Shown in pieces: positions 6,331 through 14,583 of a DNA stretch of 21,298 nt. Origin of the DNA: a virus; IMG/VR virus record IMGVR_UViG_3300027852_000189, positions 1 to 21,298 of that record; one strand, written 5' to 3'. The translations under genes and the position numbers were made by a program. Position 1 is the first letter of the stretch; each line of letters begins with the position of its first letter. The notes beneath the pieces were generated by a model that worked only from the letters and a program-made list of their open reading frames with translations, was not told the DNA's origin and searched no databases.

Positions 6331-6627
6331 TCAAATATGAGGCAGGTGTGCCGGATTGGCGCTTGCCATTTCTTCGAGGAGTGGCATCAGGGCAGCGCCT
6401 GCCGCGCGGTCGATGTCGGTTCCGTCGCGGATCAGGACGCGGGCAGCGCGGCGGCGTGTGCCGGCGTCCAATGAAATATCGGCCATCGCGGCCCGCATGG
6501 CCCGCAGGCGCATGGGCATCATTATGGCGGCGGCTCCATGATTTGTGGGCAGGGCTGTGTCGATCAGCTGGTTGATGCGGGCGATAGCCGCGCAATCTGT
6601 GGCGATGGTGTGGGTGTGCTGGGTCAT
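6331..6627 (-). CDS. Hypothetical early phage protein
   Basis: This 98-aa protein starts MTQHTHTIATDCAAIARINQ and is almost entirely helical and Ala/Arg/Met-rich (MMPMRLRAMRAAMADIS, then GTRRRAARVLIRDGTDIDRA). No family is recognised. AAAGGTG lies about 7 nt before the ATG at 6627. Directly upstream is a terminator-like hairpin, so this gene may be the first of a separately controlled downstream part of the left operon. Confidence 0.7.
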   Translation of the reverse strand: MTQHTHTIATDCAAIARINQLIDTALPTNHGAAAIMMPMRLRAMRAAMADISLDAGTRRRAARVLIRDGTDIDRAAGAALMPLLEEMASANPAHLPHI

Positions 6628-6655
6628 GGTTGCACCTTTGACTGTTTGGAAAAGG

Positions 6656-6686
6656 GACCGGGGCAGAGAGCAGTCATGCCCCGGTC
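6656..6686 (-). terminator. Intra-operon intrinsic terminator or attenuator
   Basis: GACCGGGGCA (6656-6665) and TGCCCCGGTC (6677-6686) form a perfect 10-bp stem with an 11-nt loop. On the minus strand the stem is followed by CCCTTTTCC, a short T-run, as in an intrinsic terminator. It sits in the 69-bp gap (6628-6696) between the 136-aa and 98-aa genes, so it could reduce transcription into the distal genes (DUF2303, methyltransferase, integrase) unless antitermination occurs. Confidence 0.65.
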
Positions 6687-6696
6687 AGTGAACCGG

Positions 6697-7107
6697 CTAG
6701 GAAGAGCGGGCCGGTTTTTCGTGATCAGTGGCCGGTGGCCAGTGTGCGCTGATCGCGCCGATGTGTTCGTTCACGCGATAGGCTGCGCGGGCGTTAGCGA
6801 TTTCTTCGCCGTGGTTGCGCGGAGTGGGGAATGGCGCGGGGGCGTCGTCTTGTGCCGGTTTAGCGACGGCGGTTGCGGCTTTGATCCAGTTGCGGATAGC
6901 CTCGTCTTCGGTCCAGCCGTAGGCGTTGACCTGATGCACGCTGACCTCGATCATGTGGCTTGTCAGGCCGTTTTTGCTGGGGCGGATATGGCTGCCGCCG
7001 TTGGCGAGAACTTCACTGGCGAAGTGGTCCTGTCGTCCGGCAGGGCCGAGTAATTCGAGGTCGAGCAGGAAATCGCGCAGGTTTGTGTTGTCAGGTGTTT
7101 TGGTCAC
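6697..7107 (-). CDS. Hypothetical early phage protein (GTG start)
   Basis: This 136-aa protein begins with GTG at 7107, which overlaps the upstream TGA (GTGA) and has AGGA 8 nt before it. The open frame extends 58 codons further upstream, but those overlap the preceding gene in another frame and are Pro/Arg-rich shadow sequence. Visible parts are NLRDFLLDLELLGPAG, then HMIEVSVHQVNAYGWTEDEA and IRNWIKAATAVA (a helix-turn-strand layout), and a low-complexity Ala/Pro linker before a final helix. No family is recognised. Confidence 0.72.
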   Translation of the reverse strand: MTKTPDNTNLRDFLLDLELLGPAGRQDHFASEVLANGGSHIRPSKNGLTSHMIEVSVHQVNAYGWTEDEAIRNWIKAATAVAKPAQDDAPAPFPTPRNHGEEIANARAAYRVNEHIGAISAHWPPATDHEKPARSS

Positions 7108-7319
7108 AGCAATGTTTCCTGCGTTGCATCGCCGGGGCGATAGATTTCGATGGCTTCGAGCACCAGAAACGGGTGGCCGTTCTGGCGGGCAAGGCTGGCC
7201 GCCGCCGTTGCTGCGTCGCCGTGGTGGCTGTAGCGGGTGCGCGGTTCGGTCTTGGCGTGCGGGCCGGTCGGGTGGCGGCACACCATCCAGAACCGTGCGA
7301 CTGGAGGTAGGGCCGTCAT
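7104..7319 (-). CDS. Small hypothetical phage protein
   Basis: This 71-aa protein begins MTALPPVARFWMVCRHP. The arrangement W-x-V-x-R, then TEPRTRYSHHGDAATAAASL, then ARQNGHPFLVLEAIE recalls a recurring small prophage protein with a beta strand, a helix and a strand; no function is known. The start overlaps the ACP-like stop (ATGA at 7319-7316) and the end overlaps the next start (GTGA), so it lies in a translationally coupled chain. Ribosome-site-like GGAGG-type purines are not obvious, which fits coupling. Confidence 0.75.
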   Translation of the reverse strand: MTALPPVARFWMVCRHPTGPHAKTEPRTRYSHHGDAATAAASLARQNGHPFLVLEAIEIYRPGDATQETLL

Positions 7320-7564
7320 AGCGTTGCCAGTGCGCCGGTCGCGGCGTTCACCAGACGCTCAAGATCGCGAGGCGTGTGCGCGGATTCAAATTGGTCGTCG
7401 CTGATTTCGACGCCGAATTCATCCTCTATGGTGATGACGATTTCGATTGCGCCGAAGTCGTCAATCTGCAGATCGCGGGCAAGGACGGCGTCTGGTGTTA
7501 CGTCTGCCTTGGGGTGGCCGCTGATGTCGGCAATGATGCCGGTGATCTTGTCAAGTACGCTCAT
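7316..7564 (-). CDS. Acyl-carrier-protein-like protein lacking the phosphopantetheine serine
   Basis: This 82-aa protein aligns by eye over its whole length with acyl carrier proteins: a first helix (VLDKITGIIADIS), a loop (ADVTPDAVLARDL), a second helix entered through QIDDFGAIEIVITIEDEF, the conserved GVEISDD segment, and a last helix (TPRDLERLVNAA). Canonical ACPs have D-S-L at the start of the second helix, where Ser carries 4'-phosphopantetheine. Here the same place reads D35-D36-F37 (codons GAC GAC TTC), so the protein should not be able to carry an acyl group. The ATG at 7564 overlaps the upstream TGA (TGATG). It may act as a protein-protein interaction module, for example a decoy for host ACP partners. 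Function is inference. Confidence 0.85.
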   Translation of the reverse strand: MSVLDKITGIIADISGHPKADVTPDAVLARDLQIDDFGAIEIVITIEDEFGVEISDDQFESAHTPRDLERLVNAATGALATL

Positions 7565-7743
7565 CAAGCCACCTGCGGTTGGCTTGCAGGGCGGCGGATG
7601 GCGTGCAGGGTGCTTTGGCGCACGGTCTGGCCGCGTTCGGCCTTGAGCGTGGCCCAGGCGATCAGGCGCAGCATCGGACTGTGCGAAGCTGACGGGTTGG
7701 CGACCAAGGCGCGGGCGGTTGGGTGCTTTTCGGGCTGTTTCAT
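7564..7743 (-). CDS. 59-aa hypothetical protein, first gene of left operon
   Basis: ATG at 7743 follows a good GGAGG at 6-nt spacing and opens a 59-aa basic protein starting MKQPEKHPTARALVANPSAS, with a helical centre (MLRLIAWATLKAERG) and a C-terminal part rich in Arg, Gln and Ala. Its TGA overlaps the ATG of the ACP-like gene (TGATG), which argues strongly that it is a real coupled gene. It is the promoter-proximal gene of the left operon. No family is recognised. Confidence 0.7.
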   Translation of the reverse strand: MKQPEKHPTARALVANPSASHSPMLRLIAWATLKAERGQTVRQSTLHAIRRPASQPQVA

Positions 7744-7765: not shown

Positions 7766-7825
7766 GTTTGCGAAGTTAGCGGTTAGCGAATGTTACTGTC
7801 AAGTGTAAACTTAGCTGTTAGCGAA
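7766..7825. promoter_or_regulatory. Operator-like repeats before the left operon
   Basis: The plus strand reads GTTTGCGAA (7766-7774), GTTAGCGGT (7775-7783), GTTAGCGAA (7782-7790) and GTTAGCGAA (7817-7825). These near-identical 9-mers, in the same direction, surround the candidate promoter. The same GCGAA/TTCGC core recurs in the repressor/Cro interval, so they are likely repressor or Cro binding half-sites. The rest of the non-coding interval (7744-7908) shows nothing else clear. Confidence 0.55.
7773..7802 (-). promoter_or_regulatory. Candidate promoter of the left early operon
   Basis: On the minus strand TTGACA (7802-7797) is a consensus -35, followed after 18 nt by TAACTT (7778-7773) as a weak -10. 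It lies 30-60 bp before the ATG at 7743. The TTCGCTAAC operator-like boxes overlap both hexamers, which fits repression by the prophage CI protein. Confidence 0.5.
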
Positions 7826-7908
7826 CTTTCGTCAGCACAGCAATCCTGCCTTGAGGCCGGCGCACGCATCCGGCACCCTTGGGGTGGATTTAGCGCGTGG
7901 GGGTTGTG

Positions 7909-8271
7909 ATGATTTGGGTGTTCTGGATTGGCGCGGCTGTCGTGACTGGGCTGGCAGCGCAAGCGCGGGGGCGCAGCTTTTTTGGCTGGCTGATGCTTGG
8001 CTTTCTGTTCAGCGTTTTCGCGTTGATCGCCGTGCTGGTTATGGCGCCGGTTGGCGCGGGCGGGCGGGACGCTGGCGGATCGTTGTCGCCCGACCGGATC
8101 CGCCGCGAGCCTGTGCGAAAGCCCGCCGCCCCCAGTCAAGCCGTCGCTGACAACTATCGCGGCTACGAGATTGTGACGCGTTCGGGTCGCGTCACGTGCC
8201 GGGGTGTTGCGTTTGTTTCCGCAGAAGCTGCGCGAGCTTGGGTCGATGCGCAGCTTGGCGGGCATTGCTGA
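7909..8271 (+). CDS. Small inner-membrane prophage protein
   Basis: This 120-aa protein starts MIWVFWIGAAVVTGLAAQAR, one hydrophobic helix. It is followed by a short basic stretch and a second helix (WLMLGFLFSVFALIAVLV), an Arg/Pro-rich linker (about 60-80) and a soluble C-terminal domain (YRGYEIVTRSGRVTCRGVAF and a final Ala-rich helix). It is therefore a two-pass membrane protein. GTG codons at 7897 and 7906 are alternative starts; the ATG at 7909 has a G-rich site before it. It stands alone between two operator regions, beside the repressor, in a place where lysogenic-conversion or superinfection-exclusion genes are often found. That role is only a possibility. Confidence 0.75.
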   Translation: MIWVFWIGAAVVTGLAAQARGRSFFGWLMLGFLFSVFALIAVLVMAPVGAGGRDAGGSLSPDRIRREPVRKPAAPSQAVADNYRGYEIVTRSGRVTCRGVAFVSAEAARAWVDAQLGGHC

Positions 8272-8288
8272 TTTTAGAGAAAATCGGC
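8267..8288. terminator. Shared hairpin at convergent gene ends
   Basis: A 9-bp stem (8267-8275 with 8280-8288, one G-U pair) with the 4-nt loop AGAG spans the stop codons of the membrane protein (TGA 8269-8271) and the repressor (TAA 8276-8274). It is AT-rich inside and lacks a following T-run in either direction, so it is a possible weak bidirectional terminator or 3'-end stabiliser. Confidence 0.45.
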
Positions 8289-8864
8289 CCTCAACACACC
8301 AATAACCTTGCCTAGTATGGCCGCGCTACCGTTCGCGGGGTCCAGCCTGTCAATTGCGGGCCCGGAGACAAGCCACGGGTCGAGCCATCGCCGCAAGTGC
8401 GTTCTGGCGGTGCCGTCCGCATCGAGAATAGTGCAGATGACAATGTCATCCAGCGCGATCTTGCCGTTCATTTCGATCAACACTTTGTCGCCTGCCAGCA
8501 AGCCAAGGTCGGGTTGCGCAGCGTTGGTGGTGAACATCTGCACGTGGCGCCCGTTTCTGGCGCTGATTGCGAGAATCGTTTCTGCGTCTGATCGTGGCTT
8601 TGGTTGAAAGGGTGTAGCGCCCGACTCGGCCAGCGCAAAGTCTTGGGCGGTTTTGTTCTGCGCGGTACTGATCTCTGTGGCGCCGTAAATCTCGCCCGGT
8701 GTCACGCCAAGCGCCTCGACAATCAGCGCCAGCGTTTCCATGGATGGTTGTTTTTTTTGCGAAATAATCTCGCTTACAAAGCCTGCGCTGACCCCGATGC
8801 GAGCCGCAAGCGCAGCCTGCGTCACGCCCTGGCGTTTGAGAATCGGTCCTAGGTTCAGTTTCAT
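8274..8864 (-). CDS. CI-like prophage repressor with degenerate S24 domain
   Basis: This 196-aa protein should bind the operators and keep the lytic genes off. Residues 5-60 are an XRE/HTH_3 domain (VTQAALAARIGVSAGFVSEI is helices 2-3). Residues 105-195 have the LexA/S24 peptidase-like fold, recognised by LAGDKVLIEMNG and DDIVICTI. In active S24 proteins a G-D-S-M Ser precedes the GD-x-V strand and a Lys sits in the later T-x-K-R strand. Here the places read TTNAAQPDLG and ARTHLRRW, with no Ser or Lys, so self-cleavage after DNA damage seems unlikely. It diverges from the Cro-like gene, and no clear Shine-Dalgarno precedes the ATG. Confidence 0.88.
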   Translation of the reverse strand: MKLNLGPILKRQGVTQAALAARIGVSAGFVSEIISQKKQPSMETLALIVEALGVTPGEIYGATEISTAQNKTAQDFALAESGATPFQPKPRSDAETILAISARNGRHVQMFTTNAAQPDLGLLAGDKVLIEMNGKIALDDIVICTILDADGTARTHLRRWLDPWLVSGPAIDRLDPANGSAAILGKVIGVLRADFL

Positions 8865-13369: not shown

Positions 13370-13945
13370 ATGGACGACGAGGCCGAAGACACAAGAACGC
13401 GGCGAGATCGTGTGCGGGCGTTGCTGGCAGACCTGACGGCGCGTGGTATGCGCAGGCGGCGTGGGCAAAGCGAGGCGGTGTTGTCGGATGATCTGGACCG
13501 TCTGGTTGTGGCGCTGGATCATTTGTCGCCTGCCTGCCTTGATGTGTTGGGTGAGCAAATACTGGACATGGCCGGCGGGGCGCGGCGTGACGAGTGGCCC
13601 AGTTTCGTCGTGATGCGCGGGATTGGTTTGGGTTTGCAGGCGCGGCCATTTGAGGAGCGCCGGATCGTGCGCTCGTGGTTGGCCTCGGTAGAGGGGCCGT
13701 TGGCCTTGGCGCGTGGCGAGCTGGTGCCGCTGTACCGCTTTCTGCGTCGTCATGGTCGCCCGCCGCTGGCGATGGATTTGCGTCAGATTTCGGACAGCGC
13801 GGCAGAGTGTGTACGTCGGCTGCAGATCATCGACGAGCGCGGCACCCCCCGATCGGACGAACTGGATTGGTTGCGTGCGTACCGCGCCGATGAATCGGCT
13901 GCGCTGGCGATCTTGGATTTGGCGAAGCGGGGTGAAGCGGCATGA
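13370..13945 (+). CDS. Helical hypothetical phage protein after the iterons
   Basis: This 191-aa, Arg- and Asp/Glu-rich protein begins MDDEAEDTRTRRDRVRALLA and is helical throughout. Parts are LSDDLDRLVVALDHLSPACL, GLGLQARPFEERRIVRSWLA, a LYRFLRRHGRPPLAMDLRQI segment resembling a helix-turn-helix, and a C-terminal DELDWLRAYRADESAALAIL helix. No family is recognised. AGGGGAGA precedes the ATG at 13370. A TTG start 13 codons earlier is possible but has no ribosome site. Lying between the candidate origin and the NusG-like gene, it could be a replication accessory factor, but this rests on position only. Confidence 0.72.
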   Translation: MDDEAEDTRTRRDRVRALLADLTARGMRRRRGQSEAVLSDDLDRLVVALDHLSPACLDVLGEQILDMAGGARRDEWPSFVVMRGIGLGLQARPFEERRIVRSWLASVEGPLALARGELVPLYRFLRRHGRPPLAMDLRQISDSAAECVRRLQIIDERGTPRSDELDWLRAYRADESAALAILDLAKRGEAA

Positions 13946-14583
13946 AGCATGAGGTGGTCAGGATGGCGGGTAATCTGGATTTCAGCGTTGGCGACGTGGT
14001 TGGCTCGGTGGCGCGTGGTGGTGCGATCTTTGACGGTGATGGCGGGCCCCGGTGGTATGCGTTGCGGGTGGCATCGCAGCGCGAGGATCAGGCTGAGGCA
14101 TGGTTGAACCAGCGCGGGGTATACGGGTTTCATCCGGTGCAGATACGCAAGACGCGGCGGTTCGGTCGAGTTCGCGAGTATGTGCGCCGCTATTTGCCGG
14201 GGTATGTGTTTGCTGAGTTCCCTGCGGCCCCGGTCATTCACCGGGTGTTGATCTGTCCGTTCATCACAGGCGCGTTGACCTTGCGGTGTGGCGCGTGGGG
14301 GCAGATTGATCCGGACGGTTTGCGGGCGATCCATGCGATGCGCCGCGTTGATGCCGATGCGCAGGAGGCCCACGCAGCGACCAAGAAGCGCCGGCGGCTA
14401 GCCGTGGCCCTTCGGGTTGGCGACACGGCGATGTTCAAGGCGGGGCCGTTTGCGGGCGTGCGATGTGAGGTTGTTTCGATCAAGGCCGCTGGTGGTTTGG
14501 CGGTGAGACTGTCGCTGTTCGGGCGTGAGACTTCGGTCGAGTCCAGCGTTGATGATTTAGTCCCTGTTAAGAAAACCGTTTGA
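13942..14583 (+). CDS. Phage NusG/RfaH-like transcription elongation factor
   Basis: This 213-aa protein has an NGN domain at about 36-110 (RWYALRVASQREDQAEAWLN, then YVRRYLPGYVFAEFP) and a C-terminal KOW domain at about 157-209 (LRVGDTAMFKAGPFAGVRCE, then SLFGRETSVESSVDDLVPV). NusG-type proteins bind the RNA polymerase clamp across the main channel and suppress pausing; RfaH-type paralogues do so at selected operons. An extra 35-residue N-terminal part and a basic linker (ATKKRRRLAV) distinguish it from housekeeping NusG. It is the last gene before the late region, the position of lambda Q, so late-gene antitermination is a good hypothesis. Its ATG overlaps the previous stop. Confidence 0.88.
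   Translation: MKHEVVRMAGNLDFSVGDVVGSVARGGAIFDGDGGPRWYALRVASQREDQAEAWLNQRGVYGFHPVQIRKTRRFGRVREYVRRYLPGYVFAEFPAAPVIHRVLICPFITGALTLRCGAWGQIDPDGLRAIHAMRRVDADAQEAHAATKKRRRLAVALRVGDTAMFKAGPFAGVRCEVVSIKAAGGLAVRLSLFGRETSVESSVDDLVPVKKTV

Follow-up and report, generated by a model that had tools for sequence, protein, structure and literature searches.

Without its attachment Ser, an acyl carrier protein (ACP) cannot be phosphopantetheinylated. In E. coli ACP, the S36T exchange likewise gave no modification (PMC3340395), and binding to IscS needs D35, S36 and D38, with both S36T and D35N losing binding (PMC13343975). The mitochondrial ACP of Plasmodium falciparum has Phe at the Ser site and binds Isd11 without the prosthetic arm (PMC8547962). 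ACPs encoded by phages have been reported as auxiliary metabolic genes or as genes of unclear function (PMC8224337, PMC5463345, PMC10152775), and acpP has been reported in 8 roseobacter prophages, where it was described as a lipid-synthesis gene, three copies adjoining fabG and fabF (PMC8224337). No paper describing Ser-less phage ACPs was found in the literature searched.

The stretch of DNA analysed here (the window), a virus record of 21.3 kb, carries an integrase adjoining a tRNA-Arg, a repressor, a NusG-like gene, a terminase, a portal and a capsid gene. Judged by the neighbour genes, its closest relatives are phages and prophages of Rhodobacterales. One minus-strand ORF, at 7316-7564 (ATG at 7564, with the TTG at 7567, one codon further upstream, as the listed start), encodes the protein MSVLDKITGIIADISGHPKADVTPDAVLARDLQIDDFGAIEIVITIEDEFGVEISDDQFESAHTPRDLERLVNAATGALATL, which was matched by PF00550 at residues 5-72 over the whole profile (positions 1-67 of 67; E 1.3e-11, 45 bits against a cut-off of 20.8) and by PHROG 5934 'acyl carrier protein' (1.9e-12). 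Its score with TIGR00517, the NCBI ACP equivalog, was 43.6, below the cut-off of 70.45. In the PDB, 128 distinct sequences matched at E<=1. The helix-II pattern occurred once in the window and in none of 100 shuffles. The protein resembles AcpP of type II fatty-acid synthesis (PF00550 / TIGR00517) in length, four-helix fold, acidic helix II and acidic pI (17 acidic and 5 basic residues, its charge not exceeding that of host AcpP), and differs from it in having Asp36 for Ser36, Phe37 for Leu, Gln33 for Gly and Gly38 for Asp. A preliminary description of this DNA had stated that the whole ACP pattern is kept, the GVEISDD segment included, and that D-D-F stands where ACPs have D-S-L; the full-length profile match, the retained segment and the alignments bear out both statements.

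Residues 35-37 read D-D-F, and numbering from Met1 agrees with that of mature E. coli AcpP, which places Asp36 exactly at Ser36; the PDB ACP alignments displayed were free of gaps across this motif. No Ser, Thr or Cys that could substitute is found in residues 24-44. As a Ser codon (TCN/AGY) becomes an Asp codon (GAY) only by two base changes, a single base error as the source of Asp36 was excluded, and a sequencing error was judged unlikely. Because Asp36 replaces the Ser that is modified by phosphopantetheinyl transferase, the protein, to judge from its sequence, cannot carry 4'-phosphopantetheine and would not be loaded with an acyl chain, and the chemistry of the earlier proposal that this copy acts without a prosthetic group was right. 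Asp and Glu are generally favourable at the N-terminus of a helix, and the acid at the start of helix II may also be explicable on purely structural grounds. Mimicry of the phosphate and the helix-II N-terminal position are two possible reasons for the acid.

An AlphaFold2 model, built with an input alignment of 59 rows of viral ACPs, predicted the four-helix ACP fold (pLDDT 93.6), with helices at residues 3-15, 36-50, 56-60 and 65-76 as assigned by DSSP on the model. By Foldseek, the model lay at 0.8-1.0 A rmsd from solved ACPs of E. coli, H. pylori and T. thermophilus, the top PDB match being 3ejb_A (0.8 A across 74 columns). The structure prediction and the PF00550 search that had been proposed as checks thus both returned an ACP. 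Acidic residues are kept on or near helix II at D35, E41, E47, D48 and E49, and then at D56 and D57; position 38 is Gly, so the D38 of E. coli ACP is lost.

The gene lies second in a leftward operon adjoining the repressor (Table 1), as had been described for an early operon of a prophage, and it is coupled to both of its neighbours: its ATG and the stop of the preceding 59-aa gene have one base in common (TGATG), and its stop overlaps the start of the following 71-aa gene by four bases (ATGA). Each of the 18-nt repeats upstream of the operon holds two TTAGC(G/T) units, and the repeats are possibly operators, or repressor sites. About 30 related Rhodobacterales phage and prophage loci keep the 71-aa gene, and several of them also have the 59-aa gene, a gene like it being seen by inspection to precede the slot in other loci. 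The slot between the two is filled in these relatives by other small genes, such as that for a Cys-rich 83-aa protein in locus L003, and a phmmer search of 48 other loci turned up no ACP. As relatives have different small genes there, the slot is variable and the ACP gene of the window is accessory. Its operon neighbours are small proteins, none of which points to lipid metabolism; Pfam scans of the window genes gave no fatty-acid enzyme, and no match to a phosphopantetheinyl transferase was obtained in the virus record, which is incomplete. Two further genes of the window may be mentioned. The region between the left operon and the repressor encodes, at 7897-8271 (+), a 124-aa protein with a hydrophobic N-terminus and no Pfam match, and a NusG-family gene at 13942-14583 (+), upstream of the HNH and terminase genes, is perhaps a phage antiterminator of the late genes.

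Table 1. Positions of the ACP-like gene, its key residues and the neighbouring features in the window.
Feature	Position	Strand	Basis
Ser-less ACP-like gene, 82 aa, pI 4.05	7316..7564	-	PF00550, PHROG 5934, AlphaFold2 model
GAC codon, Asp36, at the E. coli AcpP Ser36 position	7457..7459	-	Gap-free alignments
Helix II, acidic recognition helix, residues 36-50, DFGAIEIVITIEDEF	7415..7459	-	DSSP on predicted model, H36-50
First left-operon gene, 59 aa	7564..7743	-	tblastn matches in L003 and L006
Third gene, 71 aa, kept in related prophages	7104..7319	-	Searches of related loci
Two 18-nt direct repeats, AAGTTAGCGGTTAGCGAA / AACTTAGCTGTTAGCGAA, just upstream of left operon	7773..7825	.	Repeat analysis
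Phage repressor with HTH (HTH_3), upstream of left operon	8274..8864	-	Pfam scan

Close relatives of the protein were sought in several collections. Single-protein pattern scans of IMG/VR and GTDB contigs gave no relative, the repressor used as bait gave no related record, and with DUF2303 as bait 17 related records were retrieved, PF00550 matching in none of them. In 395 Rhodobacteraceae genomes, a protein search returned matches at about 40% identity or below and none closer, and Ser was present in all of the matches fetched. A second ACP of Rhodobacteraceae (96-98 aa frames, DLGIDSLG; L081 and L106) has in common with the window protein the MSV-DK--IIA start, ADVTPD and an I-D-x-x-G pattern around the site, and differs from it in its intact Ser, in its C-terminal half and in an identity of only 36-40%. 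As the window protein is without a close relative, selection on its Asp36 is not itself measurable. Close phage homologues with an intact D-S-L, marking Asp as a chance mutation, and a predicted structure lacking the ACP fold had been named beforehand as findings that would overturn the proposal. Neither was obtained: the predicted fold is that of an ACP, and no close phage homologue with D-S-L exists in the collections searched.

To follow the loss of Ser among viral ACPs at large, the complete IMG/VR collection was scanned for the helix-II motif with a codon starting in G (Val, Ala, Asp, Glu or Gly) at the Ser position. This gave 112 stretches, 51 of which were ACP-like after scoring with an ACP profile and removal of false cases; without identical copies, these comprised 20 with Glu, 11 with Asp, 9 with Ala and 1 with Gly, and PF00550 matched 8 of 9 Ser-less proteins that were scanned independently. 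Two candidates stand outside the 51. L166 was rejected as no ACP at all, and L140 was rejected for a DSL three residues upstream, its frame (6446-7138, +) encoding an ACP domain with intact D-S-L followed by a three-residue insertion (DSLDGVDGVELL). A matching scan for the Ser form gave at least 114 ACPs, all with Ser and none with Thr or Cys in this sample. Its coverage was estimated at about 44% (95% range about 22-69%) from a rarer sub-pattern, 8 of whose 18 stretches had already been seen, which puts the Ser ACPs of IMG/VR at about 260 (165-530) and the Ser-less share of viral ACPs bearing the helix-II motif at about 17% (9-24%), or roughly one in six. Ser-less, mostly acidic ACP-like proteins are therefore a regular part of viral genomes, and the window protein, with its ACP fold and profile match, its viral genome and its Asp at the Ser site, belongs to a grouping proposed here of Ser-less, acid-substituted phage ACP-like proteins. 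The same G-codon pattern gave four matches in 398 Pseudomonadota and 391 Rhodobacterales genomes, with no convincing ACP (best 12.7 bits); as a control, the pattern with Ser matched 36 of 38 host ACP loci.

Codons for Asn, Lys, His and Gln, which share their middle base with those for Asp and Glu and are twice as many, accounted for only one ACP in the whole of IMG/VR, so that the non-redundant count was 31 Asp or Glu against 1, in a survey of the Ser site that took in the G-starting codons, these four residues and the Ser form. No Ser codon reaches Asp or Glu in fewer than two steps, and the bias is therefore better accounted for by selection for an acid, or by a strong structural preference for one, than by drift. 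In a tree of 116 ACP rows, the acidic rows were scattered, and 16 changes (13-16 in bootstraps) were reconstructed for them; the resolution is too weak for counting losses and the supported branches force only two, so that many independent losses of Ser among viral ACPs are likely and not proven.

Ser-less ACPs were also found in cultured phages. Five Miltonvirus genomes, that of Serratia phage phiMAM1 among them, have the motif D-E-L and an invariant helix II; pN was 0.005-0.094 and pS 0.084-0.41 among the five copies, and by these values the Miltonvirus Ser-less ACP is under purifying selection. Among IMG/VR pairs, dN/dS was 0.13 for L120/L172, in which Glu and Asp are swapped, 0.18 for L126/L181 and 0.33 for L134/L157. 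The question of whether the acid is conserved in prophage homologues, raised in the preliminary description, thus receives a divided answer: an acidic residue recurs in many phages and is retained in Miltonvirus, as in several IMG/VR clusters, but the window gene has no close homologues of its own. Pseudomonas phage Lu11 (Lu11_0346) has D-D-L and phage NCTB has D-N-L. The ACPs of PHROG 5934 are phage-encoded like the window protein, and phiMAM1 MAM_092 and Lu11_0346 are Ser-less as well; all of these are only distantly similar to it in sequence, most phage ACPs keep DSL, and phiMAM1 and Lu11 are large lytic phages whereas the window is a prophage.

Ser-less ACP domains were also seen within larger proteins. 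The frame L169:7148-7996 (-) joins a RIIB-lysis-inhibitor domain (PHROG 609, 1.6e-33) to a Ser-less D-D-L ACP domain (PF00550, 4e-5), and tblastn matches extending past the RIIB part were obtained in Caulobacter phage CcrBL10 and Erwinia phage FBB1. In L154:2962-4968 (+), a protein of about 669 aa has a Ser-less ACP domain in its middle, flanked by Ala/Lys-rich linkers, with no other Pfam match, and in L202 such a domain follows one that matches PHROG 419.

The reading that we favour, though tentatively and a little short of calling it probable, is that the window protein is a prosthetic-group-free ACP mimic which would occupy partners of host AcpP, competing with the host ACP signal or replacing it. 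The phage would make the mimic early and permanently without the prosthetic group; it would dock through the largely retained acidic helix-II face, as ACPs do on their partners, perhaps as a decoy for host ACP; and it would thereby occupy at least one host enzyme or regulator that normally recognises AcpP. Candidate partners are fatty-acid, lipid-A or phospholipid enzymes, AcpS, an Rsh/SpoT-type enzyme and IscS; for the toxin enzymes also suggested previously, the sequence gave no pointer. Some host partners would not bind the mimic because they need the arm, as suggested by the loss of IscS binding in S36T and D35N; the D38 that E. coli ACP needs for IscS is moreover Gly in the window protein. 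The earlier interpretation is partly supported, namely for the ACP fold, the missing carrier chemistry and the place in the early left operon of a prophage, with the decoy and the phosphate mimicry as its conjectural part, and the recurrence of Ser-less ACPs is wider than had been seen. A broader proposal, which we regard as possible but somewhat more doubtful, is that phages have repeatedly made ACPs into arm-less docking proteins by acidic replacement of Ser, forming a widespread host-takeover class that would block or re-route lipid synthesis, (p)ppGpp or Fe-S control.

Other readings of the locus account for parts of these data. The ACP fold might serve as a scaffold or docking module in a complex unrelated to lipid metabolism, with host AcpP not displaced; the Ser-less domains within larger phage proteins (the RIIB fusion of L169, L154 and L202) are in keeping with such a subunit, as is the precedent of the P. 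falciparum mitochondrial ACP (PMC8547962), which like the window protein combines the ACP fold with the absence of the attachment Ser and of the prosthetic group. That protein differs in having Phe rather than Asp and in being an essential Fe-S assembly subunit of a eukaryotic organelle. Against a structural role, the window protein is free, 82 aa long and placed in a slot of unrelated small genes, more like an accessory effector than part of a fixed complex; we consider such a role unlikely, if worth serious attention. The variable slot and the lack of close relatives would also suit a captured carrier gene that has lost its role and now has no function, its Asp kept only because an acid fits the N-terminus of helix II. 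Against this stand the intact frame, its coupling to both neighbours, the confidently predicted fold and the purifying selection on relatives of the class; moreover, drift should yield Asn, Thr and the like at least as often as Asp or Glu, and there was one case of Asn/Lys/His/Gln and none of Thr or Cys in the sample. A remnant therefore seems rather improbable.

Acidic phage proteins often act as DNA mimics or similar anti-defence or anti-repressor proteins, and a very acidic, early protein could have taken up the ACP fold for its charge only; we think this very unlikely, as what is conserved belongs to ACP docking and not to a general negative surface, and the charge does not exceed that of host AcpP. 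Least credible of all is an ordinary auxiliary metabolic acpP that still carries acyl chains. Annotation tools would name the window protein an ACP, and the roseobacter prophage genes (PMC8224337), compared by description, are likewise ACP genes in Rhodobacteraceae prophages; but the residue to be modified is absent, with no replacement nearby, and even S36T is unmodified in E. coli (PMC3340395).

Phage acpP is routinely reported as an auxiliary metabolic gene aiding lipid synthesis, and about one in six of the motif-bearing viral ACP-like proteins cannot do that chemistry. Annotation may readily present these proteins as acyl carriers: the database entry of phiMAM1 MAM_092 reads 'acyl carrier protein', and the product of L131:1006-1239 (-) has Glu at the Ser site, yet scored 92.7 with TIGR00517 against the cut-off of 70.45, so that automatic annotation would name it a working acyl carrier protein. 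If arm-less binding of ACP partners is true, these proteins would compete naturally with a hub protein central to bacterial metabolism and would offer a route to learning how lipid synthesis or stress signalling comes under phage control, and their recurrence in cultured phages (Serratia phage phiMAM1 and its relatives, Pseudomonas phage Lu11) makes the idea of a mimic testable. In a further phage, Pseudomonas phage HRDY3 (L371), two overlapping ACP genes lie side by side, with D-S-L intact in both.
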